Positions 20,058 through 64,000 of a stretch of DNA of 64,000 bases are shown here, one piece after another. The DNA is from Lantana camara (Eukaryota > Streptophyta > Magnoliopsida > Lamiales > Verbenaceae), in the NCBI GenBank assembly GCA_037501455.1, contig CM074862.1, forward strand, positions 60,295,501 to 60,359,500, given 5' to 3'. The notes beneath the pieces were generated by a model. The model did no database searches and was not told where the DNA came from. It worked only from the letters and a program-made list of their open reading frames with translations. The stretch's first letter is position 1; each line of letters begins with the position of its first letter. Made by a program: the position numbers and the translations under genes.

Positions 20058-21505
20058 TATAATGCCCCGTTTTCTCGACAAGTCAGGTATGACGACACGA
20101 GTGGGTTTAGACCGAGCGTTATGTGATTTAGTTATGTTTTGATTGCTAACTGACTGTTTAAGTTATTAATTTCGCTAACTAATTGCTACTGTGTGACCTA
20201 TATGACTTAAGTGATCATGTTACTTAAACTCGTTTTCAATACGTTTACTTGCTAATAATGTTTTATTTTGATTATGAATGTATTTGAGCTTATATGAAAT
20301 CCTTGGACTCAATTGAACTTTGAATTGGACCTCAATTGCTCACTTACCAAACTTTCGGGTCCTAATTGAAGCACTTAATTTGTTGAGGGGCTAAAGTGCA
20401 ATTCCCCCCTATTCCTCCCCTTGATTACATGACATACCCCCCCCCCCCCCCCTTCTCATTCTTCCTCTTTTCATTTTTCTTCCAAGAACTCCCCAAACCC
20501 TTCATCCCTTCTCTTCCAAAATCGAGCCCAAGCAAGAGACAAGAATCAAGCTCCAATCTTTCTTTTTTCTTCCTCTCTTCCAAGGTATGTGTGAATATAT
20601 GTATATATGTGTATATGTGTATATGTGTATATATATATTTGTGGGTTTGTTGGATAATTGATGATTTGGTGATGATATGTGCATATATATGTGTATTGTG
20701 GTGTATTTTAATGTATTTTAGTGTATGAATTGATCCGGATATGATTTGGGGTGGTTTTGGAACCTTTCCCTCCGAACCCGTACTCCTTTACCTTTGTTTT
20801 TTGGAGAAATGACTCCGCACGGCCGTGCGGAGCTTCAGTTCATTTCACGAACGGCCGCGCACTATTGTTCGAGGTTTGGCAATTTCACCTTCGGCGTGGC
20901 CGCGCAGATTCTCAAGCCAATTTTTGCACGGCCGTGCAGCCTTCATTTGTACTCTGTTTTTCCTAGAAGCCTCTTGAAGTCTAGAACCTTCTCCAATTGG
21001 AATCACCTTAAATTCCTTGTGGTTTGTGAGATATGATCGTTTGAAAATTGTGTCGCCACTTCTCCAAAATTCTGCATTGGTCCAACTTCAAACCTACGCC
21101 ATTATCGCCTCATATTGAACCACGATTCGGGCCATATACCATCGGAAAGGCCTACTTGTATATTTTCATTTCCACTAAACAAAACTTGATTCCAACTTCT
21201 AGAACTTGAGATATTCCTAATTTTCTACAGCTTGTCCTTTTCCAAAAATTGTTAGCTTCCACCAAAATCCACTTCCTTGCGTTCCTTTCACCCCCTTGAC
21301 TTCCGTATGTGTTTTAATTGATCTCTTCTGCCTTAAAATTGTACTTATGATATGTTAAGATATGCTTATGAACTTTATGGATTGATTTGTGTTGGACAAA
21401 TGTGACATATATGCAAAAACGTTTAAAGTGCTATAATGTGACTCTTCTTGTAACCAATGCATTCCTTGTGTTTTTAATGAATTCCTTTCACCTCTAATTG
21501 ATTCA
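20058..21505 (+). mobile_element. LTR fragment (start of an LTR related to N2), interrupted by element G
   Basis: It opens TATAATGCCCCG, a decayed TGTAACGCCCCG start, followed by CAGGTATGACG and GAGTGGGTTTAGA, as in the N2 LTR read on the minus strand. A C-run of about 14 bases lies near 20439, a donor-like CCAAGGTATGTG near 20580 and a palindrome cassette at 20813-20940. Element G starts at 21506. No protein family is seen; the 110-codon and 96-codon ORFs look like chance. Confidence 0.7.
20813..20940 (+). repeat. Palindrome cassette, GCACGGCCGTGC type
   Basis: CTCCGCACGGCCGTGCGGAG (20813-20832) is a perfect 20-bp palindrome. Weaker copies around CGGCCGCGC (near 20850) and GTGGCCGCG (near 20895) follow, then a perfect TGCACGGCCGTGCA at 20925-20938. 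The position is comparable to the cassettes in other LTRs of the window. Confidence 0.8.
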
Positions 21506-23207
21506 TGTGACACCTCCGTTTTTTATCGTTTTTTAATCCGATTTTTTGTTCTTATTTTCCATGCATGAAATATACGTGTTATGAACTTGTGATTATGCTC
21601 GTTTTATGTTTTCGAGTTTGTTTGTTGAGCTTTTGGATTGTTTGTTTCGTTTGGAACCTAAAGGAGGTTAAAACGTTTTAACGCACCTTGGGTTCCGGGT
21701 TGTGTAATTCGAGCTCGGGAATTCAGATTTGAATTCCGTCACCTCTGTTGGACTTGTTTCGATAATTCGGGTTCAATGGACCAAGCCTTGTATCTTCCTA
21801 AGCCCATTTGATACTCTGAAATTCGACCGAAAACTCACCTCGCGCCTATATGACTATCTTTCACTTATTTGCACATAAGTCCCTCAATTCTTGGCATATT
21901 ACCCTCAAACTTGGTCCCACCATCTACCAACTCAATCCCATATCATTCCTTGCCTCTCCATTCTCGGTTCAAACAAGAAAAAGGGCAGAAAGTGTAGCAA
22001 CTTTGGAGAACAAACATTTCACCTCATCACTATTCACACCAAGGAGAATTTGAGCTCATTTCTCCATTTTCTTCCATCATCTTCAAGAGGTAAGCTTATA
22101 TTTGATATGTACATGTATATGTGATAATTTCTATCCCTTAATTTCATGTTTTGAGCTATGTTTGACATATATATGAAGTATAGATTGATTTATGAGGGTT
22201 TGATGATCTCATGCTATCCTTGGAGTTATACTTTGGTTTGATGATATCTATATGATCTCTCAAGCTTTATTCATGAATATATGCTCTTATTTTTTGTTAT
22301 GGTTGAATGTGTTGAGTGTTGCCATTGATGAGCTTCAAGTTTTCTTGCAGGACATGGATGATATATATGGCTTCCTTGCTCTCTTTGTCTTGTTTGATGA
22401 TTTTGGTGAAGTTGGGACAAGTTATTACATGAGTTTGATGCATAAATATTGGTTGTTGTTGGTGCTTGGTGTTGCTGCTGTGTGCCCTGTTTTGCTTCCC
22501 CTGTTTCTCGCATGAACACTGTTGCTACTGCTATTTTTTTTTCGAAGAATAAAGGCCAACACGGCCGTGTCAGCTTTGAACGTGATTTGGACATGGCCGT
22601 GTCGGAACTTCGAGTTGGGCTAATAATTTTTGTAAAATCGGACTGAACTGAAAACCAACACGACCGTGTCTAAAGTTTGAGTTTGGCTCCTGAATTTATT
22701 TTAATCGGACACGGCCATGTCCAATTTGAACTAAAACCTAACACAACCGTGTCCTGTATGTGCAGCGGCGACGGTTGTTCGTTTTGTAATTTCGATACCT
22801 TTCTTTATGTTTACTTGCTTCCTTTATGACTCGTATGTAATGGTGACTTATTATATTATGTGTTATTTGCATTGTATTGCATTTGCGACCTTATTTGATA
22901 TTAGTTTTCTGAGTATGAATTTATATGACCTAATTTGTATGTTTATGCATTCTATTTGCATTTATTGCATTCATAAGCATAACCGAGAGTCTATTTGGTT
23001 CATATCTGAGTCTAAGTCTTGGTTTTTGCCTCAGAGCCTCTTTCGGGCGTGCAGGAGTGGAGGTTTAGGTGATTGGTCGTTGTTCTAACCCTACTTCTGC
23101 TTCCTTTTGTTAAGGTGAGGTTAGGAACTTTGTATTAGATATCGACCTACGGCTTATTAAGTGATGTTTTACACCCTTGTGTGAATATATATCTTATATA
23201 TATTAAA
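21506..23207 (+). repeat. 5' LTR of element G, left part
   Basis: It starts TGTGACACCTCCG and is cut at 23207 by the Tekay insertion; the rest is 33387-34419, giving about 2.7 kb in total. It has a donor-like AAGAGGTAAGC at about 22084 and five ACACGGCCGTGT-type palindromes at 22559-22753. The GTGACACC start resembles that of K. The block CGAGCTCGGGAATTC...GTCACCTC near 21708-21745 recurs in J and, inverted, in M. Confidence 0.88.
22559..22753 (+). repeat. Palindrome cassette, ACACGGCCGTGT type
   Basis: Five copies lie at about 22559, 22591, 22658, 22708 and 22741. The first is perfect; the others have one or two changes (CATGG, CGACC, GGCCATG, CAACC). Spacing is about 30-65 bp. Most changed bases are C-to-T or G-to-A, as expected for decay of methylated cytosines. 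Confidence 0.82.
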
Positions 23208-25884
23208 TGTAACGCCCCGGTTTCCGGATGAACAGGTAAGCACGCCACGTGTGCGTTTTGAGTGTAGGTTTATTTTACTTCTTTTAATTATAATATATTC
23301 TTACGTGGCATTCATATTTTTATAAAATTCATGAAACATAATTTATATCAATTCTTTAAATTCATATCATTGAAAATATTATTTCATGACACGAAAAAAA
23401 TATTTATTGCATGAAATCAATTACCGAGAGTGATAAAATTACCAAATTGTCCCTAGTTAAATAATTTCTATAACTCTAGGGACTTAATTGCATAATCTTT
23501 TAGGGACATGATTGATCATTTCTCAAAACCTTAGATACCGTATTGCATAACTTAAAGACTTCAAGGATTGATTAGCAATTTGGCAAATTTCACAAAAATC
23601 AAGAGGATGAATTACGTATCATCTCTTCTCCCTCATTCCTTGATCATTTCTATCCAAAATTGCCAAACATATTCATCTCTCTCTCGGTTCAAAGAAAGGA
23701 AAAGGGAAGAAGATAATTTTCATTTCAATCATCAAGATTTCAAGAAGTGTTCCAAGAAATTGGAAGTGATCATCATCATCATCATCCTATTTCTTCATTT
23801 CTTCTATCCTCAAGGTTGGTGTGAGCTTGAATAGATGAGTTGATCATATTTGTATATGCTAGGGTTTAGGAATTTCATGATATATGAGTTATGTGTTGTG
23901 CAAAGCATGATTAAATGATCATAACATGAATTATTGCTTGATTTCTAGCTTGATTCTTTGAATATTGGCTTGAATGAGCAAGTATGGTCATGTACATGAA
24001 ACCTTGAAATCTTGTTGATATTGCATGTTTTATAGGTTTAAATGTTATATTATCATTTATGGAAGTTGTTTGCATTACATTTCCAGAAATTATAGCATTT
24101 GGGGTTCAAAAATGGATTCTTGTTGCTTTGTTGCTTTCTTCCCGAGAGCATACTCTGTTTTGCTTTGTTTTTTTTTTTTTCCAGTTGCAGAGCTGGGAAC
24201 GACCGTTCCCAGCCTTAAGGCATGGCGGGAACGGGCGTTCCCATTTCCTTTTCAAAATTTGGGCGGCCGAGCATGGGAACGGTCGTTCCCATTTTGGCCT
24301 TGCGCCGGAAGGGCCGTTCCCAGCTCAAAGGCGCGCTTTAAAAAGGGAAAAACGTTGCCGCGTTTTTGGGCAACGGGAACGACCGTTCCCATTTTTCAAA
24401 AGGGACCGGAACGGCCGTTCCCACCTGTAATGCAGTGTAAAATTCACTGCATAAATTTACGAAAATAGCCCCTCGACCCGACGACTTCTTTGACCCCGAA
24501 TTGCTATAATGTGTGTTAATATGATGTGAAACGAAATGTTATGATACCACATTGCATTTTCATGGTCGTCTCGACACATTTTCGCCGTTCGTCATATTTT
24601 GGTCATTTTAGGTCATGTCTCACGATTGTACATCGTATTTGCACAGGTCACGAGGGCGTGGACGGGGAGCAAGCTCCTTAGAACGCTTCTTTATTTTATT
24701 TTGCAAGAAAGGTGAGGTTTTGTTTTGGTAAAACGAACCCTATAACCCTTATGTGCTAGTTTTCGGCCAAAATCTATTATAATTATAAACGTTTTCAAAG
24801 CCATCAATATTTCAAGCAAGAAAGTATCGATTGTCATGATTTTCAAGCATGTTTGGCGAGTACATGATTGCACGTGGGCCCGAGGGTAATTCTTGAGCCA
24901 ACCGGGAAAGCAAGGGCTGACGGGTAACTCCTGAATTATCTTCACATTGTTGGGATCACCCCCGAAGCCACTAGGAGATTAGTGGTGGAAGGAGTTCCGT
25001 GTCTAGAGGGTCATGTCCTCTACACACACCATGTCGTGGATAGTCGAGCCTTGCAAACTCGCTATCACCCGGAGGAAGAAGGAGACTGGGGATTAATCCG
25101 GTATGTCGGGTTATCCTCGGGTTATTGCATGATTTCAAGCATGAACTTGTTTATGTGAGCACTAAATAAATTGCATGATCACGTATTTATCAAGTAAGCA
25201 AGCATGATCACGTATTGTTCACGATTGGGAGTTCGGTTGGAGATTGCCCTTACTCACCGGGGCCACATGTTCATGATATTGACAAACATGATTAAGTAAA
25301 CGTGTTAAAATGGATAGTGGTAATCTCGGGCAAAGGATGAGATTTCTTGAACTATATAATTATTGGTTTCCAAAAGTCTTTACCGAGGCTACAACTTGCA
25401 TGTGACGTGTGTTATATTTAATTATTACCCCTCACTCAGTCTTCGGTAGACTGATACTCCACTTTTCAGGTACCTTTTGAGCGTGGTTGTGCTAGGCGGG
25501 AGTTGGTCGAGTCCTGCATTATCACGGGTCTAGTGTTGCACCTTTCATGTATATATTTTGTCAGATATCATGTTATATTCACGATTGATACATTTTGGAT
25601 ACATGGTTATGTATATCATGAAAAGATGGTAATGTATTAGTAGTTAATTGGTACCTATATGTATCTATGTAATAAATATGGTACCTATGTATATAACTGA
25701 CTTTACTGCTTCCGCTTTTCTATTCATGACTGTTGATTTTGTTGGGGGAGAGTGTCCCGCCTAGAGCGTCGTTTTGTTGTCACCCGTTCGCTGTGGTTTT
25801 GGTTTATGTATGAACTGTCCATTTCATACGTGGATCGAGGCTACAGTGCGGGGGATGTGGCACCTTGGGGTCTAGGGTGCTACA
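23208..25884 (+). repeat. 5' LTR of the Tekay-like element
   Basis: It starts TGTAACGCCCCGG and ends GGGTGCTACA. It includes a donor-like AAG|GT at 23812-23816, six GGGAACG...CGTTCCC palindromes at 24192-24420, a GGAG-loop hairpin at 24968-24985, a TCAGTC/GACTGA hairpin at 25436-25454 and an acceptor-like TTTTCAG ending at 25469. ORFs in the LTR show no known family. Confidence 0.97.
24192..24420 (+). repeat. Palindrome cassette, GGGAACGRCCGTTCCC type
   Basis: Six copies lie at 24192-24213 (arms GCTGGGAACG/CGTTCCCAGC), about 24227, 24274, 24307, 24375 and 24407. Arms of 5-10 bp flank a GC centre. The second LTR has the same array at about 31690-31918. Confidence 0.9.
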
Positions 25885-25892
25885 TCTACAGG

Positions 25893-25904
25893 TGGTATCA
25901 GAGC
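25893..25904 (+). other. Primer-binding site of the Tekay-like element
   Basis: TGGTATCAGAGC lies 8 bases after the LTR end and is complementary to initiator methionine tRNA. Confidence 0.92.
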
Positions 25905-26139
25905 CCGGTTGCAAAACCGAGGTTCTCGAGTCGTGTCGAGTCAGTTTAGGTCGCACGGCATAGGATTATGTGGTAATTGGGAGTCTGCATTTGGTTGACT
26001 TGCCTGATTTACTTATTCCTTTGCATTTATTGAGCTAATTGATCTTTCTTGAACGTGTGTTACTTGATATTATGGAAATTATATGCACTCATTTGCATTT
26101 ATTGATCAAGCCACGCATGTTTAGTGATTTAATTTCAGG

Positions 26140-29100
26140 ATGGAGCGTGATAGACATTCCCATGACCGATCCCCGAGGCACAGGCATCATCATCGCCGCC
26201 ACCATCATCGCCGTGAGAGGTCACCGCCTCCTCCACCTGCTCAGGCACAACCCCAGGATTTCATGAATGCAGTAGTGGGGCTAATTGACCAGAGATTACA
26301 GGAACGGGTTCCTCCACCACCTCCAGCGCAGGTAGCACCTCCGGAGAATCCCATTTCTGCTATCTTGCGAGAGTTTCAGAACCAGCGTCCCCCGAAGTTC
26401 TATAAGGGAGACGATATCCAGGCAGAGATGTGGCTGAAAGAGATCGAGAGGATTTGGCAGCTTATTCCTTGCGATAGTCAGGAGAAGGCTCGTTGCACAC
26501 TTACCCTTATTCAGGGCGAGGCCTACTCCTGGTGGGAGAGCACTCAGATTGTTCTGGAGGCAGCAGGGACTGAGATTACCTGGGAGGTCTTTGTAAGGGA
26601 GTTCAGAAACAAGTATATTCCTCCAGCTTCCCGTACCCGCAGATTGAGGGAGTTTACAGAGCTAAAGCAGGGAGGCAGGTCCGTGGGTCAGTATATCGCC
26701 GAGTTCGAGAGGCTTTCTCGCTATGCACCTAACATAGCGAACGATGACTTTCACAAGGCGATGCAGTTCGTTCAGGGGTTGAGACCAGATATCCAGGATG
26801 CACTGAAAGCGGCTAACACTAGTACCTGGGCAAAAGCTACTGCAAAAGCCCTAAAGGTTGAAGATTCTGATAGTGTTAGGAGGGCTACTCAGCGAGCAGG
26901 ACAGGCTTCAGGCTCGAGATCAGGCCAGGGTTCGAGTTCAGGGAAGAGGCCGATGGTTTACTCTGCACCTCCAGCACAGAGGGACTCTGGGAAGAAGTTT
27001 AAGACTACGGGATTGTCACAGAAGGGTGCAGGGCCGTTGCTGAGAGGTCCGAGAGCTCTAGCACCACCCCAGCCACCTCAGAGACCGGGGTGCAGATGGT
27101 GTGGACAGCCTACACATACTTATGATAACTGCAGACGCCGGTTGGGCTTATGTTTGATCTGCGGGAGTAACGAGCACTTGGTTGACGGTTGTCCGGATCG
27201 TCAGGATCCACCACCTGCAGGACCGAGGCCACTGGTGAGAGCTCGAGCTTATGCACTTGCTGGAGAGGAGCAGGATGCTGAGATTGACCCCGCCGCAGTA
27301 GTTGAAGGTATTATTTGCATTCATGGCACGAACATCCATACATTATTTGATCCAGGAGCTACACACTCCTTTCTTGCGCACTCTATTGCTATTACCTTGT
27401 CGTTGCCTGCTATGTGTACTTCTATGCGCTATATAGTTAGTACTCCTTTCGGTAGTAGGCGAGAGACGGATCAGGTTTACATGGATGTTCCAGTGGTGAT
27501 TGAGGGCAGGGAATTTTTGACGGACTTCATTGTGATGCCGATGGAGAGATACGGGGCTATTCTGGGGATGGATTGGCTTTACAGACACCGTGCTACAATT
27601 GATTGTCGGGCCAAGAAGGTTCAGTTGGGTTCAGAGGTTGTCACGGGCTGTACTTCGAAGACGGTACCCCTACTTTCGTTTTCAGAGGCTCAGAAGTTAG
27701 TCAGAGACGGGGCTACAGGGTTCATTGCTTACATTCTGAACAAGCCCAAAGATCAGGTGAAATTAGAGGACACAGAAGTGGTAAAGGAATTCCCCGAGGT
27801 ATTTCCAGAGAAATTGGATTCTTTGCCTCCTGAGCGAGAGATTGAATTTGTGATTGATCTTTTCCCGAATGCTGAGCCGTATTCAAAGACTCCCTATCGG
27901 ATGGCTCCAGCTGAGTTGAAGGAATTAAAAGTTCAGCTTGAGGCCTTGTTGGAAGTTGGGTATATTCGGCCAAGTTCTTCGCCGTGGGGAGCACCAGTTT
28001 TGTTTGTGAAGAAAAAGGACGGGACTCTAAGAATGTGCATTGATTACAGGGAGTTGAACAGGATGACTATTAAGAACAAGTATCCCCTCCCACATATCGA
28101 GGAATTGTTCGAGATACTCCAGGGTTCTAAGGTGTATTCGAAATTGGATTTAAGACAGGGGTACTATCAGCTGCGAATCCGAGAAGAGGACATTCCTAAG
28201 ACAGGATTCAATACTCGGTACGGGCACTACGAGTTCGTGGTTATGCCATTTGGATTAACTAACGCCCCTGCAGCTTTCATGGATATGATGCACCGGATAT
28301 TCAGACCTTTCCTCGATAAGTTCGTGGTGATTTTTATTGATGACATTCTGGTTTTCTCAAAATCAGCCGAGGAGCACGCGAGACATCTCCGGCTCGTTCT
28401 TCAGACTCTAAAAGAGCATCAGTTGTTTGCTAAGTTCAGTAAATGTGAATTTTGGATAGATCGGGTTTCCTTCTTGGGGCACGTGATTTCAGGGAAAGGG
28501 TTGGAAGTCGATCCCTCGAAAATTGAGGCCGTGCTTAAGTGGGAGAAACCAAAGAATGCCTCGGAGATTAGAAGCTTCTTGGGATTGGCCGGTTATTACA
28601 GAAGGTTTGTTCAGGATTTCTCCAAGATTGCGGCACCGTTAACCCTGTTGACGAAGAAGGATGTTAAGTTAGTCTGGGACGAGAAGTGTGATCAAAGCTT
28701 TAATTTTCTGAAAGAAAAGTTAGTCTCAGCTCCGGTATTAACCTTACCCGAAGGTTCAGAAGAGTATGCAGTGTACACCGATGCTTCTAAAGAAGGCTTA
28801 GGTTGTGTTTTGACTCAGAAAGGAAAAGTGATCGCCTATGCTTCTCAGAAGCTAAAGGAATATGAAAGAAATTATCCGACACACGACCTAGAGCTTGCAG
28901 CCGTGATCTTTGCGCTCGGGAAATGGAGACATTATCTTTACGGGACTTCCTTTGAGATATTTATCGATCACAAGAGCCTCCAGTATTTATTCACACAGAA
29001 GGATTTGAATATGAGGCAACGGCGTTGGATGGAAAAGTTGGAAGACTATGATTGTACAATTAAATACCATCCCGGGAAAGCCAATGTGGTCACCGATGCA

Positions 29101-30669
29101 CTTAGCAGGAAGGCGAGTGTATCGAGTTTGGAAATAAAGGAAAGTGAGGAAGTTGCCCCGATTGTGTTAAAGGCTCGGGTTTCTAATATCACAGTTCAGC
29201 CGGAATTAAAACATCAGTTATTTGAGGCTCAGAATAAGGATCCGGAAGTGCAGAAGCTTGTAAGTAAAGCTAAAGATGACCCGGAGAGTCCGTTTGGGTT
29301 TGATGAGACCGGGTTGCTTCGGTTTAAGAACAGAGTAGTAGTACCTGAAGAATTGAGAAGGGTCCTACTTGAGGAAGCTCACAAGTCAGCATACTCGATC
29401 CACCCGGGAGGAAATAAAATGTATAAGGATTTGAAGCAATATTATTGGTGGAACGGGATGAAGAGAGACGTGGCAGAGTATGTGAAACATTGCTTGACTT
29501 GTCAGAAAGTGAAAGCTGAACATCAAAAGCCCGCGGGACTTCTACAACCGTTACCTATTCCCGAGTGGAAGTGGGAACAAGTAACGATGGACTTTGTTTC
29601 TGGATTACCGAAGGTTAAAGGCGGGTTTGATGGAATTTGGGTAATCGTGGACCGATTTACGAAGTCTGCTCACTTTCTACCGGTCCGGATGTCTTATAAG
29701 ATCCCGAAGTTGGCCGAGATCTATAACAGAGAGATTATTCGACTTCATGGTATTCAGGTGAGCATAGTTTCTGACCGAGACCCGAGATTTACTTCTAAGT
29801 TGTGGTAGGAATTACAGGCTGTCTTGGGAACGAAAGTTAAGTTCAGTACAGCATTCCACCCGCAAACAGACGGTCAAACTGAAAGGTTGATCAGGTATTT
29901 GGAAGATCTGCTTCGGGCTTGCGCGATGGATTTTCAGAACTCGTGGTCAGACCAGCTTCCCTTGATCGAGTTTGCTTATAATAACAGCTTTCAGGCTTCG
30001 ATCGGGATGGCTCCTTACGAGTTATTATATGGAAGGAAGTGCCGATCTCCGTTGTTCTTCGACTTGGAAGAGTGGAAGTGGTCGAAACAGGAAGGGGTAA
30101 AGAGAGGTGAAAGATTCGAAAGGCCTTCCAGAGTCGTCCAAGCTATGATTGAAAAGGTTCAAACGATCCAACAACGGATGAAAGCCGCGCAAGATAGACA
30201 GAAGAGTTATGCGGATAAGCGCCGCAGGGATCTAGAATTCGAAGTTGGTGACCGGGTTTTCTTGAAGGTGTCACCAAGGAAAGGTTTCACCCGGATCGGG
30301 AAAGGAGGAAAGCTTAATCCTCGCTACTTAGGTCCGTTTGAGATTCTGGAAAGAATAGGCGAGGTAGCCTATCGACTGGACCTACCACCGAGTCTTACGG
30401 GGATTCACAACGTGTTTCATGTTTCACAATTAAGGAAATATTACCCCGATGAGACTACGATTCTCCCCGTGGAAGAAGTTGAGCTGGAACCGAATTTGAC
30501 ATTTGTTCAGAGGCCGGTTAAGATCATGGATCGGAAATTCCAAAAATTGAGAAACTGGAGAATTCCCATGGTCAAAGTGTTGTGGAGAAGCGATAAAACC
30601 GAGGAAGCGACGTGGGAAACAGAGGATAAAATGAAACGGTTCCACCCGGAGTTGTTCGAGCAAGACTAG
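26140..30669 (+). pseudogene. Ty3/gypsy gag-pol polyprotein with one in-frame stop
   Basis: One reading frame of 1509 codons is broken only by TAG at 29806-29808 (codon 1223). Domains in order: a His/Arg-rich N-terminus (1-35); retrotransposon gag (about 85-235); two zinc knuckles CX2CX4HX4C (from 318 and 338); protease with [10 protein letters not shown] (Asp404); reverse transcriptase with a catalytic FIDD box (Asp734, Asp735); RNase H from about 870 (YTDAS to DALSRK); integrase with an HHCC zinc site, then Asp1151, Asp1212 and Glu1248 (a DD35E spacing); and a C-terminal chromodomain-like segment (about 1455-1505, FVQRPVKIMDR to WETEDKMKRFHPELF). The stop falls between the second Asp and the Glu of the integrase. 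The start is the first Met after the primer-binding site that begins the conserved gag. Everything else looks functional in sequence. Confidence 0.96.
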
Positions 30670-30706: not shown

Positions 30707-30707
30707 T

Positions 30708-33381
30708 TGTAACGCCCCGGTTTCCGGATGAACAGGTAAGCACGCCACGTGTGCGTTTTGAGTGTAGGTTTATTTTACTTCTTTTAATTATAATATATTC
30801 TTACGTGGCATTCATATTTTTATAAAATTCATGAAACATAATTTATATCAATTCTTTAAATTCATATCATTGAAAATATTATTTCATGACACGAAAAAAA
30901 TATTTATTGCATGAAATCAATTACCGAGAGTGATAAAATTACCAAATTGTCCCTAGTTAAATAATTTCTATAACTCTAGGGACTTAATTGCATAATCTTT
31001 TAGGGACATGATTGATCATTTCTCAAAACCTTAGATACCGTATTGCATAACTTAAAGACTTCAAGGATTGATTAGCAATTTGGCAAATTTCACAAAAATC
31101 AAGAGGATGAATTACGTATCATCTCTTCTCCCTCATTCCTTGATCATTTCTATCCAAAATTGCCAAACATATTCATCTCTCTCTCGGTTCAAAGAAAGGA
31201 AAAGGGAAGAAGATAATTTTCATTTCAATCATCAAGATTTCAAGAAGTGTTCCAAGAAATTGGAAGTGATCATCATCATCATCATCCTATTTCTTCATTT
31301 CTTCTATCCTCAAGGTTGGTGTGAGCTTGAATAGATGAGTTGATCATATTTGTATATGCTAGGGTTTAGGAATTTCATGATATATGAGTTATGTGTTGTG
31401 CAAAGCATGATTAAATGATCATAACATGAATTATTGCTTGATTTCTAGCTTGATTCTTTGAATATTGGCTTGAATGAGCAAGTATGGTCATGTACATGAA
31501 ACCTTGAAATCTTGTTGATATTGCATGTTTTATAGGTTTAAATGTTATATTATCATTTATGGAAGTTGTTTGCATTATATTTCCAGAAATTATAGCATTT
31601 GGGGTTCAAAAATGGATTCTTGTTGCTTTGTTGCTTTCTTCCCGAGAGCATACTCTGTTTTGCTCTGTTTTTTTTTTCCAGTTGCAGAGCTGGGAACGAC
31701 CGTTCCCAGCCTTAAGGCATGGCGGGAACGGGTATTCCCATTTCCTTTTCAAAATTTGGGCGGCCGAGCATGGGAACGGCCGTTCCCATTTTGGCCTTGC
31801 GCCGGAAGGGCCGTTCCCAGCTCAAAGGCGCGCTTTAAAAAGGGAAAAACGTTGCCGCGTTTTTGGGCAACGGGAACGACCGTTCCCATTTTTCAAAAGG
31901 GACCGGAACGGCCGTTCCCACCTGTAATGCAGTGTAAAATTCACTGCATAAATTTACGAAAATAGCCCCTCGACCCGACGACTTCTTTGACCCCGAATTG
32001 CTATAATATGTGTTAATATGTTGTGAAACGAAATGTTATGATACCACATTGCATTTTCATGGTCGTCTCGACACATTTTCGCCGTTCGTCATATTTTGGT
32101 CATTTTAGGTCATGTCTCACGATTGTACATCGTATTTGCATAGGTCACGAGGGCGTGGACGGGGAGCAAGCTCCTTAGAACGCTTCTTTATTTTATTTTG
32201 CAAGAAAGGTGAGGTTTTGTTTTGGTAAAACGAACCCTATAACCCTTATGTGCTAGTTTTCGGCCAAAATCTATTATAATTATAAACGTTTTCAAAGCCA
32301 TCAATATTTCAAGCAAGAATGTATCGATTGTCATGATTTTCAAGCATGTTTGGCGAGTACATGATTGCACGTGGGCCCGAGGGTAATTCTTGAGCCAACC
32401 GGGAAAGCAAGGGCTGACGGGTAACTCCTGAATTATCCTCACATTGTTGGGATCACCCCCAAAGCCACTAGGAGATTAGTGGTGGAAGGAGTTCCGTGTC
32501 TAGAGGGTCATGTCCTCTACACACACCATGTCGTGGATAGTCGAGCCTTGCAAACTCGCTATCACCCGGAGGAAGAAGGAGACTGGGGATTAATCCGGCA
32601 TGTCGGGTTATCCTCGGGTTATTGCATGATTTCAAGCATGAACTTGTTTATGTGAGCACTAAATAAATTGCATGATCACGTATTTATCAAGTAAGCAAGC
32701 ATGATCACGTATTGTTCACGATTAGGAGTTCGGTTGGAGATTGCCCTTACTCGCCGGGGCCACATGTTCATGATATTGACAAGCATGATTAAGTAAACGT
32801 GTTAAAATGGATAGTGGTAATCTCGGGCAAAGGATGAGATTTCTTGAACTATATAATTATTGGTTTCCAAAAGTCTTTACCGAGGCTACAACTTGCATGT
32901 GACGTGTGTTATATTTAATTATTGCCCCTCACTCAGTCTTCGGTAGACTGATACTCCACTTTTCAGGTACCTTTTGAGCGTGGTTGCGCTAGGCGGGAGT
33001 TGGTCGAGTCCTGCATTATCACGGGTCTAGTGTTGCACCTTTCATGTATATATTTTGTCAGATATCATGTTATATTCACGATTGATACATTTTGGATACA
33101 TGGTTATGTATATCATGAAAAGATGGTAATGTATTAGTAGTTAATTGGTACCTATATGTATCTATGTAATAAATATGGTACCTATGTATATAACTGACTT
33201 TACTGCTTCCGCTTTTCTATTCATGACTGTTGATTTTGTTGGGGGAGAGTGTCCCGCCTAGAGCGTCGTTTTGTTGTCACCCGTTCGCTGTGGTTTTGGT
33301 TTATGTATGAACTGTCCATTTCATACGTGGATCGAGGCTACAGTGCGGGGGATGTGGCGCCTTGGGGTCTAGGGTGCTACA
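30708..33381 (+). repeat. 3' LTR of the Tekay-like element
   Basis: This copy of 23208-25884 differs at about 17 single bases by eye, and its T-run near 31670 is 3 bases shorter. It ends TACA at 33381, followed by the TSD TTAAA. Confidence 0.97.
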
Positions 33382-33386
33382 TTAAA

Positions 33387-46739: not shown

Positions 46740-46797
46740 CCCACTAACGGTCATTAGGGGGTTTTCTAATGGAGGGGACTAATGACCATTAGTCCCC
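46740..46797 (+). repeat. Palindrome cassette of the J LTR
   Basis: GGGGACTAATG (46774-46784) pairs perfectly with CATTAGTCCCC (46787-46797) around AC. A decayed copy, CCACTAACGG..CATTAGGGG, precedes it at 46740-46760. Confidence 0.83.
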
Positions 46798-49229: not shown

Positions 49230-51835
49230 CGTGACACCCTGGTTTTTCGGCCATCCAGGTACACACTTACGAGAGAGCTAAATGTGCAATTTAAATTATT
49301 TTAATTTCATATTTAATTGAATTATACTTTATTACTTGAAATTCTTATATGAATTATTTGAATTTATATGAAATATTCGAATTATAGGTCAAAATTTGCC
49401 TAAGTGATTTATGATATGAATTTTTATGAATTTTATGATATGTGAATTTAATTTTCGAGCATGCTAATTTTTGTGAATTATGTGATTCATGTGAATTAAG
49501 GGCTTAATTGTATGATTTATTTAATTTTGGACTTAATTGAGAATTTGAACTTGGACATATTTGACACTTTTTGAAAGTTTTGGACCTAATTGAAAAATAG
49601 CCTTTTTAATAAAATTTTATTTATATTAATTCATTTAATTGTTATTTTAAAATTTTATTTATTATTTCTTTGAAAATTTAATTTTATTATTTGAATAATA
49701 TGCTTATTTGTTGAAAATGTGTTGCTTTTGTGTTCGATTTGAGATCGAAATTTCATGCCAATTTAATATGCATGAATTATACGTGTTATGAATTCGATTA
49801 TGTGCTCGTTTTAATTTTCCGGACTTGTTTGATATGGTAACGCACCATATTTTAGTTGTTGGGGACTCGAGGGCCTAACTAGTTTTAGCACGCCTTGTGT
49901 TCCGGAATTTATATATTGAGCTAGGGAATTCGGATTCGAATTCCGGAAGTAACGCTGGACTCGTAACGAAGAATGGGAGCTAAGGAACCTAGCCTTCTAT
50001 TTTTCTAAGCCCGTTTAAACCTCCGAAATTTGTCCGAACCGAGCAACTCGCGCAGATTCGCCACCTTGCATTATTTTGGCCATATCTCTCTCATTCCTTA
50101 ACCAAATGAGTTGATTCTAACCCTAGTTAAGCCCTTAATCGCTCTCTCTAGCCCTCATTTTGAAAATCATCAGCCAAGAGAGAGAAAGAAGCAGCTAAAC
50201 CGAGAGAGAAAGAGAAAGGGATTTTTTACACTATTCATGTTGCAATTTCAAGCTCAATACTTCTCCGATTCGCCTCAAATTCAAAAGGTAAGTCCATGAT
50301 TTAATTCTCTATCTTCTCATCTTTCTTTTAAGTGCTTATTTTCTGATTTCCATAAAGATTTGAGTATGCTTTGGTGAAGAATGAATAGTTAGGTTTAGCT
50401 CCAAATCTTGAATTCATGAGATAGCTTTGGTTTTTGTGGATTTTAATGCATGAATCTTCTCTCCTTAAACTCCAATAACTGAATTCTTGCTCTTATTTTT
50501 ATAGATTGTGAGTATGTGAAGTTTCACCATGATTGGAGCTTGGATATGAGACTGAAAATCTGAGATTTTGGAGCATGATTGTGAACTTCTTCTTTGTTGA
50601 TTCATGTTGCGTGAGTTGCTGTCATTTTTTGCTTTGTTTAACTGCTGTTGTTGCTGCCTTGTTAACTGTTGCGTGTTGCCCCGCTTCCCCTGCTCCTCTC
50701 CCCTGTCGAACACGCTGCTGCTGTTGTTCGTTTGCTGCGGTGTTAATCTCCCCGGGCGGAGAGATTTTACATTGGTTGTGTCCCCGGGCGGGGCCACTTA
50801 TGCAGGAGCTGCCAGCATTCTCTTCCCCCAGCGGGGAGCCATGCATGTGAATTGGTTATATGAACTGCATGGTTTTTTTAGTGCACATGTGCTTGTGTGT
50901 GTGCGTGAATGTGAAGTGTGTGTATATATATATATAGTATACATATTGTAGTGCATACATTGATGTGGTTATATGCTGATGCATATATATAAATATTAAG
51001 ATTTGTAGATTGTTAATTATATGTAACGTGTATACATATGTAATATATATAGTGTGTGTTAGGCGATGCACGTAGTGTATATATATATATATATATATGT
51101 AATATATATTATGCGCGTACGTGATATATAATTGTATATTATAATATGTATTATGTAATTAGTTATTTAAGCCCTTGATTTATTTTATATAGTATGATTT
51201 TAATAATTTGATTTTATATATGAATTTTAACCTTAAGAATGAATGTGGTATGCTATTATACGACATTTTATGAGCTTGTTTGATATGTTATGAATTTATT
51301 TGACCTGATATAAGTTTGATTCTTAAAGTATTCGTGTGATATTATGTTATCTGCTTTGATATGCCGAAGTGTGAATTTATATGACGTGCATTGCATCATT
51401 TGCATCCATATGCATTAGCCGAGCGTTTCTATCGTTCATATGGAGTCTTAGCCTTGTTTCTTGTGTTTAGATGGTTCGAAGGGAGTTGCCCGTGGGGTGC
51501 TTTGGGCTGTTCGTTCGGTTTGTAGGTCAAGGTGAGGTTTAGGTTTGTTTCTTTTTAGTTAATGCGACCTACAACCCTATATGCTCGTTTTCAAGCCCGC
51601 ATGCGACTATATTATTATATTTATATAATAGATATGTGCATATATGATATGTTTATGGCTTTGTCATATGAATAAATGTTTTAAAGTATATATACGAGCA
51701 TATCTAAGCTTGAAATGTTTTGCTACCAGGCTATGCTCCATACCGTGTGTCTTCATGCTAGCTACGGATTAGGATGACACGGAGAGGTACGTCTATAGCA
51801 TACGCTAAGTTTCAAGGTAAGGTATGCACTGATCA
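49230..51835 (+). repeat. 5' LTR of element K, left part
   Basis: It starts CGTGACACCCTGG (first base changed from T) and matches the 3' LTR at 59488. Landmarks: donor-like AAAAGGTAAGTCC at 50283-50295, a CCCCGGGCGGGG cassette at 50748-50837 and AT-rich microsatellites at 50920-51130. It is interrupted at 51835 by solo LTR S and resumes at 55450. In the first 130 bp it differs from the 3' LTR at about 4%, so K is older than the Tekay-like, N1 and N2 insertions. Confidence 0.9.
50748..50837 (+). repeat. Palindrome cassette, CCCCGGGCGGGG type (K 5' LTR)
   Basis: Three units lie at 50748, 50781 and 50823. The 3' LTR has better-kept copies at 61017, 61049 and 61091. The differences (one G lost, CGGG to CAGC) show decay in the older copy. 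Confidence 0.82.
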
Positions 51836-54800
51836 TGTAGCACCCCAACCAGAAAGGCGCTACATCCCCTACACTATGAGTCTGATCCACACATGAAATG
51901 GAAAGTCCATGTATGAACCCAGCTCACAGCGAACGGGGACTCACTCACTCCTTAGGCTAGGCGGGAACTAAACATTCACAACCAAATCAAAAGGAACAAG
52001 AATAAATGCCAAAGGCGGAAGCATAACATATAATCTAGTACTAATTCAAGCCACATAACGGTTTCAACTAGCACAATAACCTATTCTCGAAAATTCGTGC
52101 ATAACATAATTCCATAATCATAATCATAGTCATACATTTATCCATTCTTGCAAATTCAATCAAATTACAAAATGCATATGAAGTGACTCAAACTTAACCA
52201 ATAGACTTAACAAACTAGACTCCCCGCTTAGCACTCCAAACCTGCAAAGAAACTGAAAACAAACCAGGTTCAGTCTATACGAGACTGGTGGGTATAAAAC
52301 GAGGCATAAGTAACATGTAGAACAATATTTAAACATTCACATGCAAGTTATAATCCCAAATGAGGTTTTTAGAGAATATCCCAAGTGGGTGAAATAAATA
52401 AGTCATCAAAAGGGATTATAACTTTCATTTTTCATTAGGTTGTTTGTGGCCCGGTGAGTGGGCGTGCAATATATCCAACCAACACCTCGTGTAGTTCATT
52501 AAACTTTCTTTCATTCTTTCTTTCATTCATGTATAACATTATTTTGTGCAGATTCATGAACATTTACACCTTCTTCCTCCAGGTGATGGCCGGGTGATCG
52601 GCCTGAACCATCCATTCATTGACCAAAAGGGGAACATGACTCCCCAAATGGCACTCAACGTCCATTCCTCGCTAACTCCTAACGAGGTCCGGTTACGCCG
52701 TTCATTGGTGGGACTAGTGTGAGGGTTTACCGTCAGCCCATGCCTCATCGGGTCACCACCCACACCAAGTCCCTGGGCCCCATTCTGTGCATTCATTCAT
52801 TCTTTCTCGCCAAAACATTTGGTAGGTTCATAAAAGAAGGGCTTTACTTTGAAATCAATTGTTCTTAAAACGACTCTATATACATATAATAGATTTTGGT
52901 CGAAACCTTTACACATTGGGAGTATATAGGGTCATTTATCTAAATAGTAGAGAAACCCACCTGTACGCCTCACCGACCGATACCAAGAAGAAAAGAATAC
53001 TTGAAAAAGGCCTAAGAACCCGGAAAGTCTCCGCCCTGGAGAAACTGTACAAGAGACAATATAGTGCATTCGTGAGACTCAAGACACTACATGAACCACA
53101 TATGACGCACGGCATGTCATGCACAAAATATGAGACGCATAAAAAGTAGCAACATGCTATGACGATGTTCATGTGTACAATTAATGCCTCAGAAACACAT
53201 AAACGAGCAATTCATTCAAGTACTTTCAAGATAATGAAGGTGTCATATTCATTCGTTTCATATCTTTTCATGAATCCTATCAAATCGAGCCATAATCTTC
53301 AAACCATAATCATAGTACACCAACATGTTTACAATACATATAATAAATATAGAGGCAAGAGAATTTACTTAAGACGTCGAAAGAATGCAAGAATCACTTA
53401 ACATTTCATATGGAAGCACTTAAGCCACCCTATAGCATATTAGTTTGTTACCCGACAAAATCATGTCGAAGCACTCCTCATCTTCAATATAACAATTATA
53501 ACACATAATACAACTTATTATAACATTTCATGAGCATTCAAGAGTTTAAAATACATAAGAGAGGCAAAGGATACAAGAAAGCTTCACACGTGTCATTTAA
53601 ACGTTCATGCATTAAAAATCATGTTTACACTTATCAAATGGAACCATAAAATTAAAATAAATAATCAAACATATCATATATTATCAATTAATCATGTATA
53701 GATTCATTAAAACCACATACGGAGTTCGAGGAAGTGGAAGGAAAGCAAGAGAACGGATTTGAGCAAGTTTTGGTGAGAGCTGACAGTTTTCGGGAATGGG
53801 CAAGCTGTAAAGAATTGAACATATCCTGAGTTCTAGAAGTTGGCATTGGGTTTTGTTTATTGGATATGAAACTAGACAAACATATCTTTCCGAGGATATA
53901 TAGCTTGAATTTTAGTTCAAAGCAACATGAAAATGGCGTAAGCTTGAAGTTGGATGAATGCAGTGTCTCGGAAAAGTGGCGACACAAAATTAAAATGACC
54001 ATATCTCACAAAACAGAAAAGATATTGAGGTGATTCCAATTGGAGAGGGTGCTAAACTCAAAGACGTTGATCGTGTCCGAAAATCAGATCGAATGGAGTT
54101 TGGATGAAGGGGTAACCGGCCGGGTAATTCACAAGGAAAAAGTTCCCAGGCCGGGGAAAACTGTCCAGAAACCTTCTGGACAAGAAGTACCCGCCCGGGT
54201 ACTTTTTCCTCACTAAATTTACCCGCCCGGGTAAGGTGTTTCTGCTAGAAAAAGAGCAGAAACAAGGGTTGATTGAGGGGAAGAACAAGGGAAGCAATAA
54301 GGCAGCAAAGGTAGGCATGAAATGATCAAGAAAACATAGCAAAACTCATCCCACAACACTTACAACAACCGGACAAGAGAAGGGAAGGAAAGGATCAATA
54401 AGAATGCATCTTCATCTTCAAGAAATTAATTCTCTGTTAATGGTGGATCATCATATATTCAACATTCATGAGTTTAAGTTTAGAAAAAGCAACATAGCAG
54501 CTTCAAAGAGCAAGAAATCACTCATAAAAGTTCATATAACGCATGTTTGATCAATCAATTCAAAATCAAAACTAAACCTAACTATTCATGCCAATCATCA
54601 AATCATAAGAAATCATGGATGAAAAGGAGCAACCCAAGGCTTGAAATGTTCCCAAGGAGATAGAGAATTCAATCATGTTCTTACCTTTCAAGTTGGAGAA
54701 GAAATGGTGGTGGCAAGAGCTCAAAATCAAGGATGGTGAATAGTTTTTTTTCTTTCTTCTCCCTTTATCTCGGTTTTGGCTGCTTCTCTTCCCTTTTCTC

Positions 54801-56590: not shown

Positions 56591-56602
56591 TGGTATTAGA
56601 GC
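56591..56602 (+). other. Primer-binding site of element K, one base changed
   Basis: TGGTATTAGAGC has one C-to-T change from TGGTATCAGAGC. Confidence 0.8.
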
Positions 56603-59487: not shown

Positions 59488-61281
59488 TGTGACACCCCGG
59501 TTTTTCGGCCGTCCAGGTACACACTTACGAGATAGCTAAATGTGCCATTTAAATTATTTTAATTTCATATTTAATTGAATTATACTTTATTACTTGAAAT
59601 TCTTATCTGAATTATTTGAATTTATATGAAATATTCGAATTATATGTCAAAATTTGACTAAGTGATTTATGATATGAATTTTATGATATGTGAATTTAAT
59701 TTTCGAGCATGCTAATTTTTGTGAATTATGTGATTCAAGTGAATTAAGGGTTTAATTGTATGATTTATTTAATTTTGGACTTAATTGAGAATTTGAACTT
59801 CGACATATTTGACACTTTTTGAAAGTTTTGGACCTAATTGAAAAATAGCCTTTTTAATAAAATTTTATTTATTTTAATTCGTTTAATTATTATTTTGAAA
59901 TTTTATTTATTATTTCTTTGAAAATTTAATTTTATTATTTGAATAATATGCTTATTTGTTGAAAATGTGTTGCGTTTGTGTTCGATTTGATATCGAAATT
60001 TCGTGTCAATTTAATATGCATGAATTATTTGTGTTATGAATTCGATTATGTGCTCGTTTTAATTTTCCGGACTTGTTTGATATGGTAACGCAACATATTT
60101 TATTTGTTGGGGACTCGAGGGCCTAACTAGTTTTAGCGCGCCTGATGTTCCGGAATTTATATCTTGAGCTAGGGAATTCGGATTCGAATTCTGGAAGTAA
60201 CGCTGGACTCATAATGAAGAATGGGAGCTAAGGAAACAAGCCTTGTATTTTTCTAAGCCCGTTTAAGCCTCCGAAATTTGTCCGAACCGAGCAGCTCGTG
60301 CAGATTCGCCACCTTGGAGTATTTTGGCCATATCTCTCTCATTCCTTAACCAAATGAGTTGATTCTTGAGCTCACTTAACCCTAGTTAAGCCCTTAATCA
60401 CTCTCTCCAGTCCTCATTTCGAAAATCAACAGCCAAGAGATAGAAATAAGCAGCTAAACCGAAAGAGAAAGAGAAAGGGAAAGGGATTTTCTGCACTATT
60501 CATGTTGCGATTTCAAACTCAATACTTCTCCGATTCGCCTCAAATTCGAAAGGTAACTCCATGATTTTATTCTCCATATTCTCATCTTTCTTTTAAGAGC
60601 TTATTTTCTGATTTCCATGGAAATTTGAGTATGGCTTGGTGAAGAATGAATAGTTAGGTTTAGTTCAAAATCTTGAATTCATGAGATAGCTTCAGTTTTT
60701 GTGGATTTTAATGCATGAATCTTGTCTCCTTAAACTCAAATAACTAAATTCTTGCTCTTATTTTTATGGATTGGGAGTATGTGAGGTTTCACCATGATTG
60801 GAGCTTGGATATGAGACTGAAAATCTGAGATTTTGGAGCATGATTGTGAACTTCTTCCTTGTTGATTCATGCTGCGTGAGTTACTGTCATTTTTTGCTTT
60901 GTTTAACTGCTGATGTTGCTGCCTTGTTAACTACTGCGTGTTGCCCCGCTTCCCCTGCTCTGCTCCTCTATCGAACACGCTGCTGCTGCTGCTATTCATT
61001 TGCTGCGGTGTTAATCTTCCCGGGCGGGGAGATTTTACATTGGTTGTGTCCCCGGGCGGGGACACTTATGCAGAAGCTGCCAGCATTCTCTTCCCCGGGC
61101 GGGGAGCCATGCATGTGAATTGGTTATATGAGCTGCATGGTTTTTTTAGTCCACGTGTGCTTGTGTGTGTGCGTGAATCTGAAGTGTGTGTGTATATATA
61201 TATAGTATACATATCGTAGTGCCATGCATTGATGTGGTTATGTGCTGATGCATATATAAGTGTGTGTGTGTATATATATAT
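59488..61281 (+). repeat. 3' LTR of element K, truncated by LTR M
   Basis: Matches 49230 onward for 1.8 kb and is then interrupted at 61281 inside a TG/TA microsatellite. It has donor-like CGAAAGGTAACTCC near 60547 and a palindrome cassette at 61017-61106. Confidence 0.92.
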
Positions 61282-64000
61282 TGTAACACCCCCAGAGCGA
61301 AGGGTGCCACATCCCCCGCACTAAGGTCCAGCACGAGTAGCGAAATGGAAGTCCGCACCCGTATCAGACCATAGCGAACGGGAGACACACAAAACTCACA
61401 CCCTCGCTAGGCGGCCTAGACCCTCAAGAACTGCAAGAATTCAAATCAGAGTAGCGGAAGCAATTAAAGTAATTCTCAAGCTAAACATATCTCCCAAGAT
61501 CACATATACATTTCAGAAGTGGGGAAAGGGCAAGCTTTCATGATAGTTCCTATACAGAATATACAATGCCATCAAGGCCCAAAAGCGAAAGTGTAATCAT
61601 AAATACATAATCCAAAATACAACAATAAGAGTAGAAGTAATCCACTACGATGCATGAAGACCCAAGCTAAACCACAAGTAAACCCAAAAGACACTTGCCG
61701 CCTAGCTTGACTCGGAAGAACCTGCAAACTCAAAAGAAAGGAAAAAGGGGAAAACAACAACGAGGGTTAGTCCTAGCGACTAGTGAGGGAGCTAACTCAC
61801 GCACCCGATATATATATAGAGCAAAGCACTTAATCAAATAGAAAGATCCTTGAACCGAGAGTGGTTTTTGCAAGCCAAATTAATTCCCGTGATATAGATA
61901 TATATAAGTTAAAGGAAAGGGAAAAGGGCAAAACAAGACTCCAAGTTTTAGGTGAATTAAGAATCCGCTCTCGTTCCGTAGATCATACAAAGCTTAAACC
62001 AACTCGGCGAGTACGAGTCACACACATCCCCAACTTCTAAATACGAAGAACAAAGCAAAGCAAAACAAATCAGAATCCATCCCCGACACCGGTTGATAGA
62101 AGGGTTGATCGGCCCTAACTATCCACATACACAAACGAGACAAGGTTTAATTACTTCCTTGAAACCTTCGGCGGTTGCCTCCGCCGGCTCAAGAGAAACA
62201 CCCTTCGTCAAACTCCCAAGGTTGGGTGAAACTCTCAAATGGAGGTGTTAATGGGAGAGCTCGGCGTCCCCTCGATCGTCCCGAGATTACCATACCACAC
62301 TCCGGGGCCCAAACAGATCACGAAAGTCACACAAACAAATCTTAAAGCTTATCTTTCAAAGCCACATCTCGCTTACACACACACACACACACTTGCACCA
62401 AACTAAACTTTTCAAACGAAAGCAAAATAACTTATATACTTATACAAAACATTTTCAAACTCTTATAACAGATGGGGCAAATCCCGCAACATAAGTATCA
62501 TACACTTATTTACCATATACTATACGTATTCACATGCGAGGTTTCATATCAATTAGGGTCGTAGGTCGAGTAACTAAAAGAACAAAACCTCACCTTGGCA
62601 ACGAACGAAGCGGAGTCAAAAGAGGAAACCGGACACCTACGGAGCAAGCTCGTCCCCTATAGGAAGAACATCTGAACAAGGCAAACAACAAGGAACACTC
62701 TTAGACTCAATATGAACCACATTGACGCTCGGTACATGAATATGTATGCTTATGATGCAAATGATATGAAATGAATCCACATTTAGATCATCTATGAGCA
62801 TTCAAAGCATAATCAAACATATATCATAAACGAGGCAAGAATACACAACAAGAAACAACGGAAAGGAAACAAAACGAACGAAACTAGAGTTCCTAGGAGA
62901 CACGCCCGTGTCCCCCGGGAAAGGCAAGCTGAGACACCCCCGTGTCTCAGTACAGAAACTAAACAACAGAAACCTGGAGGTGACACGCCCGTGTCACCAA
63001 GAAAAGGCAAGCCGAGACACCCCCGTGTCTCGGTACAAAAAAGCGAAAACAAACTCAAAAGGTGACACGCCCGTGTCACCAACAAAGGGCAAACCGTGAC
63101 ACCCCCATGTCACGGTACAGAAAAATGCAGGCTGCTCAACAGTAACTCAGCAAGCCCAAAACAAAACCCAACACTCATGCTCTAATTACCAAGCAAAGAA
63201 ATGCAACAATTGCTAAGAAACAAGTCCTAGGAGCATACCAACAACAACAAATCTCAAGGAAACATGAAAGGAGCAAGAATCAATCAAATTCTTCCAACAC
63301 TTACTATTCACATGCTTGCCAAATCTCAACAACCAACCATGGAAATGAATTCAAAAGCATATAAAAGACAGAAGAGGGAGAGTAGATTGCAACCATGAAC
63401 TTACCTTTCAATTTGGAGAAGTTTTGATGAAGATTTGAGCTCAAAATCACAAGGTTGGCCAAAAGGCTTCTTCTTCTTCCTTGCTTCCTTGTACCGATCA
63501 GTTTTGGGAGAGAGAGAGGAGGATTGGCTCGGTTTCAAGGGGATTTAGGGCTGCAATGGTTAGCTAACTCAAGTGTATTCCAAGGTTAAGGGCTTGGTTG
63601 GGTTAAGGTGGGGTCCACAACTCAAAGCTAGGTCAAAAGGTGGCTCTCAAGCGTAAAGGGCTCGTTACGGGTGAAATACGAAGGTCTTAATGAGCTTAGA
63701 AAAATGTGAGGTTTGTTCCATTGAACCCGAATCGTCGAAACGAGTTCAATGGAGGTGACGGAATTCGAATCCGAATTCCCGAGCTCAAGATACACGTCCC
63801 AGAACCCAAGGTGCGCTAAGTGCTCTTTAGCCTCCTTTAGGTCCCGTCTCCAAAACGAACCCAAAAAGGCAACCAAAACAAATACCAAAACATATAACGA
63901 GCATATAAACGAGTTCATAAAGCATATCATCAACACATAACTCGAATTCACAAAAATCAGAATTAATTACGAACCTAAAACGAGCAAAATACAAGGTGAA
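61282..64000 (-). mobile_element. M: minus-strand LTR running off the window
   Basis: It begins TGTAACACCCCC on the plus strand (LTR 3' end on its own strand) and continues past 64000. It holds a TAGTC/GACTA hairpin at 61769-61783, a CTCGGCGAG motif near 62003, an AC microsatellite near 62378-62392, six palindromes at 62899-63114, and a donor-like site at about 63405. Blocks near 63700-63840 match the start regions of the G and J LTRs. ORFs here show no protein family. The left TSD candidate is TATAT at 61277-61281; the other copy is outside. Confidence 0.88.
62899..63114 (-). repeat. Palindrome cassette, GACACGCCCGTGTC type, six units with changing outer arms
   Basis: Units lie at about 62899-62912, 62929-62950, 62979-62998, 63012-63033, 63061-63080 and 63093-63114. 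Inner arms are ACAC/GTGT (ACAC/ATGT in the last). Outer arms vary: CTGAG/CTCAG, GGTG/CACC, CCGAG/CTCGG and CCGTG/CACGG, each paired. Two sub-types alternate. Confidence 0.92.

Follow-up and report, generated by a model that had tools for sequence, protein, structure and literature searches.

Family-specific palindrome cassettes in long terminal repeats of Lantana camara retrotransposons, candidate docking sites for a dimeric protein

Background

Palindromic repeated motifs (RM boxes) have been described in the Sireviruses, which are Ty1/copia retrotransposons. These boxes are family-specific, mostly have a CGG-CCG core and are found in the long terminal repeat (LTR) and before env (PMC2829016; for this and the other papers cited here, the statements refer to the part of the text that is accessible). 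In maize, the Sirevirus palindromes are thought to be cis-regulatory (PMC10760457, PMC5311732). Two other systems are related in some of their features. In several groups of grasses, but not in the eudicot group studied, the LTRs of Del elements have a 5' CpG island that is variable (PMC4029996), and in Arabidopsis the VANC target arrays of the VANDAL transposons evolve rapidly and diverge as whole sets, also within introns (PMC5735166, PMC10398659). Here we describe cassettes of short palindromes in the LTRs of retrotransposons of Lantana camara, starting from a stretch of 64,000 nucleotides (assembly GCA_037501455.1, contig CM074862.1, positions 60,295,501 to 60,359,500; hereafter the window) in which an initial annotation had noted them in eight LTR families (f1 to f8). 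From their sequence we infer that the cassettes may be dyad arrays at which a dimeric DNA-binding protein docks, the half-sites being specific to the element family, a reading to which we give a probability of about 0.55.

Judged by analogy, the closest precedent is the set of palindromic CGG-CCG boxes of the Ty1/copia Sireviruses. RM boxes and cassettes are both clusters of LTR palindromes that differ by family and contain CpG in their core, and RM boxes have been proposed to be regulatory (PMC2829016). However, RM boxes occur in Ty1/copia elements in at least eight copies per element, with the CGG-CCG core upstream of the TATA box and extra copies near env (PMC2829016), whereas the cassettes occur in a Ty3/gypsy chromovirus and its LTR relatives, have about two to six units in which the outer half-sites vary and the centre spans 4 bp, are located in a predicted leader intron and have been exchanged between families. 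As for the core, CGGCCG and CGACCG/CGGTCG are common here, and CGCCCG/CGGGCG and CCCCCG/CGGGGG are equally so. VANC arrays are likewise made of short sites that are situated in non-coding DNA, also within introns, vary from one related element to another and are altered as whole sets (PMC5735166), but VANC sites (YAGTATTAY) have one orientation and are read by an element-encoded protein (PMC5735166, PMC10398659), whereas the cassettes are dyads and no extra gene was seen in the chromovirus of the window. By analogy, the cassettes would work like Sirevirus boxes and VANC arrays, but they fall outside the Sireviruses by host, the chromovirus (element C) being assigned by its domains to Ty3/gypsy and the other carriers being linked to it by LTR homology only. 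The cassettes resemble the plastic CpG islands of Del LTRs in that the first half of the LTR has a CpG-rich region more variable in sequence and length than the rest; the accessible text nowhere mentions palindromes and does not resolve units (PMC4029996).

The initial annotation knew of no description of such cassettes. For Ty3/gypsy LTRs this stands, as none was found in the literature on palindromes in LTRs, most subscription papers being outside the scope of the search, but comparable family-specific palindromic boxes had been described in the Sireviruses (PMC2829016).

Results

Cassettes of the window

All 11 places of the initial annotation hold palindromes, and their units are perfect or near-perfect. 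In the sense orientation of the LTR the units follow a common plan, a half-site, a GC-rich centre of 4 bp and the inverted half-site. On the plus strand, the f1 cassette (20813..20940) has the half-site GCAC and a downstream flank in a homology group shared with f4 and f7, and the f2 cassette (22559..22753) has the half-site (G)ACAC. The f3 cassette, with the half-site GGGAAC, is present in both LTRs of element C, at 24192..24421 in the 5' LTR, where it has six units, and at 31689..31918 in the 3' LTR. The f5 cassette (46740..46797, half-site GGGGACTAAT) consists of one perfect and one imperfect unit, and the f6 cassette (half-site TCCCC) is found as a mostly imperfect copy at 50748..50837 and again in the paired LTR at 61017..61106. 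Three families are read on the minus strand: f4 (half-site AAATCCAC), in the two LTRs of element D at 38021..38072 and 44507..44558; f7 (54113..54234), in which four units with the half-site GTACCC flank a central palindrome, TGTCCAGAA; and f8 (62899..63114), with the half-sites GTGACAC and GAGACAC.

The arms are alike among the units of one cassette, although the spacers differ. The eight distinct arm sequences of the initial annotation are too many, since GACAC is common to f2 and f8 and intermediates connect f6 with f7; if f2 is counted with f8 and f6 with f7, there are about six half-site classes in the window and about nine overall. In the LTRs with a clear start, the cassette begins approximately 985, 955 and 1518 bp into the LTR, which agrees with the 0.75 to 1.5 kb noted before, and the earlier observation that position and form are kept while the sequence is replaced is confirmed. 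A cassette had been attributed to every long LTR, but the LTR at 5881-9363 contains five scattered palindromes and no array. The element at 5881-14018 has LTRs of 3.48 kb that are 99% alike and an interior of only about 1.2 kb.

Abundance in the window and in the genome

The cassettes are a genuine feature, exceed chance and occur throughout the genome. A strict filter (arms perfect over at least 6 bp, a gap of 0 to 4, at least half GC and at least two palindromes within 90 bp) found 8 clusters in the window, compared to 0.77 on average and never more than 3 in 30 shuffles of 500-bp blocks that preserved the dinucleotides; a chance origin was set aside. The filter recovers only five of the 11 noted places (24192, 31690, 54113, 61017 and 62899), because in the other six the units are imperfect, lie slightly more than 90 bp apart or are masked by a longer overlapping palindrome; its three other clusters are at 2441, 17521 and 18464. 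Twenty 10-kb samples from the rest of the genome contained 14 clusters, compared to 0 to 3 in five shuffles, and 11 of these 14 were by eye cassettes of the same kind, L003, L004 and L011 being different. In the 264 kb made up of the window and these samples, perfect inverted repeats most often had as their six innermost bases CGCCCG/CGGGCG (17), CGGCCG (14), CCCCCG/CGGGGG (12) and CGACCG/CGGTCG (10). The pattern for a GACAC-type unit pair also matches four viral_contigs entries (L140-L143), as a pattern match only.

Pattern searches of the genome (1.27 Gb) permitted gaps of 0 to 14 and used the pattern read backwards as control. They yielded 47,719 inverted pairs of GGGAAC/GTTCCC (control 871), 34,829 of GTGACAC/GTGTCAC (control 49) and 5,058 of AAATCCAC/GTGGATTT (control 1). 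Gap lengths were counted on the forward matches among those listed, all of which are on contig 1. The gap is 4 in 53 of the 65 GGGAAC matches listed, and in 8 of the remaining 12 a second half-site runs into a gap-4 site; it is 4 in 49 of the 50 AAATCCAC matches listed, whereas the 50 GTGACAC matches listed divide into 23 with gap 4 and 27 with gap 0. Mixed pairs of GGGAAC and GTGTCAC number 102 on both strands (61+41), compared to 219 for the control. The sequence of the centre is variable, even between homologous units with identical arms.

The LTRs of element A (1705-19672, with a Ty1/copia coding region) carry clustered CACGTG-type palindromes at 2441-2513 and 18456-18527, including GTGACACGTGTCAC, which is the f8 half-site with gap 0. 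Like the cassettes, these palindromes are clustered in a long LTR and have GTGACAC/GTGTCAC, but with a gap of 0 and not of 4. The 27 gap-0 GTGACAC matches listed resemble the element A LTR in form, a likeness of the sites and not of the elements that carry them.

Constraint on the units

The cassettes are abundant, constrained in the young families and exchangeable. Variation was expressed as the mean minor frequency per alignment column and was determined on best matches only, for which 20 of the 38 other f3 places, 20 of the 39 other f8 places and all 39 other f7 places were fetched, and short side matches (four in f7, three in f3) were omitted. The palindrome columns gave 0.0066 in the 22 copies of f3 (spacers 0.071, flanks 0.050), 0.0049 in the 21 copies of f8 (spacers 0.040, flanks 0.022) and 0.129 in the 40 older copies of f7 (spacers 0.191, flanks 0.226). 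In the two young families, f3 and f8, the palindromes are thus 8-11 times less variable than the intervening spacers. When the unit mask was shifted along the alignment, an equally good result was obtained in 2 of 300 shifts for f3, 2 of 309 for f8 and 6 of 144 for f7.

The CpG columns bear on another explanation, in which the units matter as CpG-rich DNA for the state of methylation or silencing, no family-specific reader being involved, and the arms drift and are kept symmetric by repair or copying. Most units have CG-NN-CG centres, CpG columns are less variable inside the units than outside (0.005 vs 0.029 in f3 and 0.004 vs 0.020 in f8, with only 12-26 columns each), and the 5' CpG island of Del LTRs is itself variable (PMC4029996). 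However, CpG content alone requires neither identical arms across the units of a cassette nor a preferred gap, the second CpG has been lost from many AAATCCAC units, and the perfect unit of f5 has none. We regard this explanation as improbable.

Position within the LTR

Upstream of the cassettes, the LTRs contain another palindrome, GGAATTCGGATTCGAATTCC, which was used as a landmark. It or a variant of it is found in the window at 21718-21737, 45879-45896, 49925-49944 (plus strand, in the f6 LTR), 60174-60191 and 63760-63779 (minus strand, in the f8 LTR). The variant GGAACTC...GAGTTCC is altered on both sides, and the form GGAATTCNGATTNGAATTCC has 8,815 copies in the genome, compared to 0 for the backwards control. 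Among 31 landmarks surveyed in the first 23 Mb of contig 1, 26 are followed by a cassette about 0.45-1.9 kb downstream, several of these cassettes (such as those of L111, L113, L138 and L139) being partly degenerate by eye. No cassette was found at the five others, L100/L120, L105, L109, L110 and L118, the last four having been searched to 1.25 kb only; L105, L110 and L118 appear, by eye only, to be interrupted by other sequence. The survey added the half-sites CCAAAC (L101), GTAAC (L117, L138) and GGTCGC (L111, L113 and also L007).

That the cassette is still present in 26 of the 31 sampled LTRs argues against its palindromes being integration targets of other elements. Plant LTR elements have a weak insertion preference for palindromes (PMC6911290), but according to the accessible part of the same paper palindrome recognition is not the main basis of targeting, and we give this explanation almost no weight.

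The cassettes seem to lie within a predicted leader intron. Around the f3 cassette of element C this intron is predicted at 23815..24646 on the plus strand (CAAG/GTTGGT ... TTTGCACAG), and it would be followed by a short leader exon (24647..24711, plus strand) and GTGAGG. Similar leader introns are predicted around the f2 cassette (22090..23034, plus strand) and the f8 cassette (62672..63404, minus strand). The module CAG, 45-125 bases, AGGTRAG follows the cassette in 20 of the 27 LTRs with at least 700 bases at hand (shuffle mean 0.74, maximum 3), and 13 of 21 LTRs have a donor-like site before the cassette (shuffle mean 4.5, maximum 9); as the surveyed LTRs are related, these counts are not independent. 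The predicted short leader exon (24647-24711 and its equivalents) often has a small inverted repeat of its own, for example GGAGCAAGCTCC or CTCCAGGGTGGAG.

Change of half-sites

The downstream flanks of 45 cassettes were grouped by single linkage over at least 100 bp, with borders and labels set by hand. One homologous flank group of eight cassettes holds six half-site classes, and conversely the half-site GTGACAC is spread over five flank groups. L010a and L016 share a 123-bp match that coincides with the cassette and is found nowhere else, whereas in the comparison of L016 with L019b the cassette matches and the adjacent flanks are unlike, a weaker similarity reappearing about 350 bp away on both sides. 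The diversity of half-sites on one flank group, the spread of one half-site over five groups and the matches that end at the cassette border together indicate that cassettes have been swapped as modules. In L010, GGGAAC and AAATCCAC units stand together in one cassette.

A few pairs have also changed in both halves of a unit. Across 12 homologous cassettes, a pair of unit 3 reads C-G in 10 rows and A-T in the other 2, and a pair of unit 4 reads T-A in 6, T-C in 3 and G-C in 3, a path of which the intermediate is visible. In f7, units U1, U2 and U4 each have one pair that switches between A-T and C-G, and the central palindrome has one that switches between C-G and G-C; in three of the five f7 stems (U2, U4 and the central palindrome) more pairs are retained than in every one of 500 shuffles. 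The outcome for covariation, the check that the initial annotation had proposed, is mixed: it is seen in part of the stems, and one-sided arm changes in f7 outnumber the paired ones.

According to the initial annotation, the pattern was hard to explain by common descent alone. Descent keeps its place in the history of the cassettes, the modules having been exchanged between related LTRs and some arms having changed on both sides with an intermediate visible. In its plainest form, descent and spread would have copied functionless palindromes along with successful elements, and copies of one family do share their cassettes by descent while old copies decay. It is nevertheless very unlikely that nothing more was involved, as the units are 8-11 times less variable than the spacers of the same copies, one homologous flank group has six half-sites, and the 8 clusters of the window compare to 0.77 in shuffles.

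Carrier elements

The window is crowded with nested LTR retrotransposons. Element C (23208-33382, plus strand) has a 5' LTR of 2,678 bp (23208..25885) and a 3' LTR of 2,675 bp (30708..33382), lengths that are inside the published Del range of 1,143-4,831 bp (PMC4029996). Of its two large open reading frames (ORFs), both on the plus strand, the first (26140..29808) codes for gag, protease, reverse transcriptase, RNase H and the integrase zinc domain, and the second (29824..30669) for the C-terminal part of the integrase and a chromodomain. The domain matches (RVT_1, RNase H, integrase and Chromo PF00385 with 26.5 bits, the cut-off being 25.1) identify element C, on sequence grounds, as a Ty3/gypsy chromovirus, and it appears Del/Tekay-like, having both a gag-pol with a C-terminal chromodomain and a long LTR. 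Its reverse transcriptase has 7,954 relatives, and wherever an organism name is given among the 120 listed, it is that of a plant. On the sense strand, the LTRs of elements C and D start with TGTAACGCCC, which differs by one base from TGTAACACCC, the most frequent U3 end among the Del elements of sorghum and maize (PMC4029996).

Besides gag-pol, the ORF list of element C contains no ORF of at least 180 amino acids; short ORFs are listed, and their function was not assessed. The interior of element D did not match the pol of element C, and the other seven cassette families are linked to the LTR type of element C via partial LTR homology and not via coding regions of their own. Elsewhere in the genome (G000 C2:86070040-86091274), four f3 cassettes stand in a row with a spacing of about 6,970 bp, which suggests tandem elements with common LTRs.

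Discussion

An array of inverted half-sites, usually 4 bp apart, would be a double-stranded docking site for a dimeric protein. The reader would be a protein acting on DNA, with a preferred half-site that differs between element families, and once bound it might activate the element or shield it from silencing from within the leader intron. This is the first of the roles that the initial annotation had proposed, sites for a dimeric protein with drifting specificity, and it fits best because the units are symmetric, have a preferred gap of 4 bp with a variable centre, rarely form mixed pairs, vary less than the spacers, occupy a shared place in the LTR and are exchanged as whole cassettes. The docking protein is probably a host factor, because the interior of element C is filled by gag-pol. 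Half-sites may diverge because it benefits a family to rely on a protein, or a variant of one, that its relatives do not use, and new half-sites would come either from the cassette of another family swapped in or from changes on both sides of a unit.

Several observations weigh against a dimeric protein. More than half of the GTGACAC pairs among the matches listed have gap 0 and not gap 4. Mixed pairs of AAATCCAC and GTGTCAC exceed their control (27 on both strands, 18+9, vs 6), and some mixed pairs have gap 4 (3 of the 100 listed for GGGAAC/GTGTCAC and 2 of 27 for AAATCCAC/GTGTCAC). The centres are GC-rich and hence not wholly free. In f7, 149 of 895 arm cells are unpaired, and the pairing in U1 and U3 does not exceed that of all shuffles; paired changes are absent from f3 and limited in f8 to one, in a single row, which counts against the idea of paired change. 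Finally, the RNA folds of five of the eight cassettes beat all 200 shuffles (z -3.8 to -8.1), and units placed in a predicted intron suit an RNA signal too.

These last two points also belong to the main rival explanation, in which the units are RNA hairpins with 4-base loops and would act as a packaging or dimerisation signal on unspliced RNA, by way of the leader intron, or as a source of small RNAs. As in the retroviral parallel, an intronic cassette would be a mark of unspliced RNA. In f7 the spacers are complementary too, so that the whole 122-bp cassette (54113-54234) folds as one nested inverted repeat, and the palindromes of maize Sireviruses attract small RNAs (PMC10760457, PMC5311732). 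However, identical palindromes can pair with each other, and strong folds are therefore expected whether the units act as DNA or as RNA; moreover, the folds of three of the eight cassettes are weak (z -0.4 to -2.1). Of the eight, f2, f3 and f8 were folded in part only. The distinct one-sided changes comprise 18 G-U, 16 A-C and 47 other cases, and this absence of a preference for G-U over A-C does not favour RNA pairing. The would-be loop varies and flips strand in homologous units (GCCC, GGTC, GGGC) while the arms persist, and hairpins would be expected to tolerate different stems and other loop lengths, whereas the units of a cassette keep the same arms. RNA hairpins appear doubtful, but they keep a real chance because the cassette lies within the predicted leader intron.

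A wider and more tentative scenario can be drawn for chromoviruses, which we consider possible and do not favour. Each family would dock its own dimeric protein on gap-4 dyads as with a private key, the keys would evolve by paired change and by cassette swaps, and a race of escape and recapture would separate relatives and account for the plastic CpG region of Del LTRs.

Conclusions

In a single plant genome, a few inverted half-sites with precise spacing reach tens of thousands of copies, and the literature searched names no reader for them. If a family-specific protein reads the cassettes, they would form a natural series of matched keys, showing how a regulator can change without loss of function in selfish elements. 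The cassettes may also supply a structural cause for the variable CpG region of Del LTRs, and the proposed docking, if true, would provide a direct handle on how related retrotransposons remain transcriptionally distinct and evade silencing.

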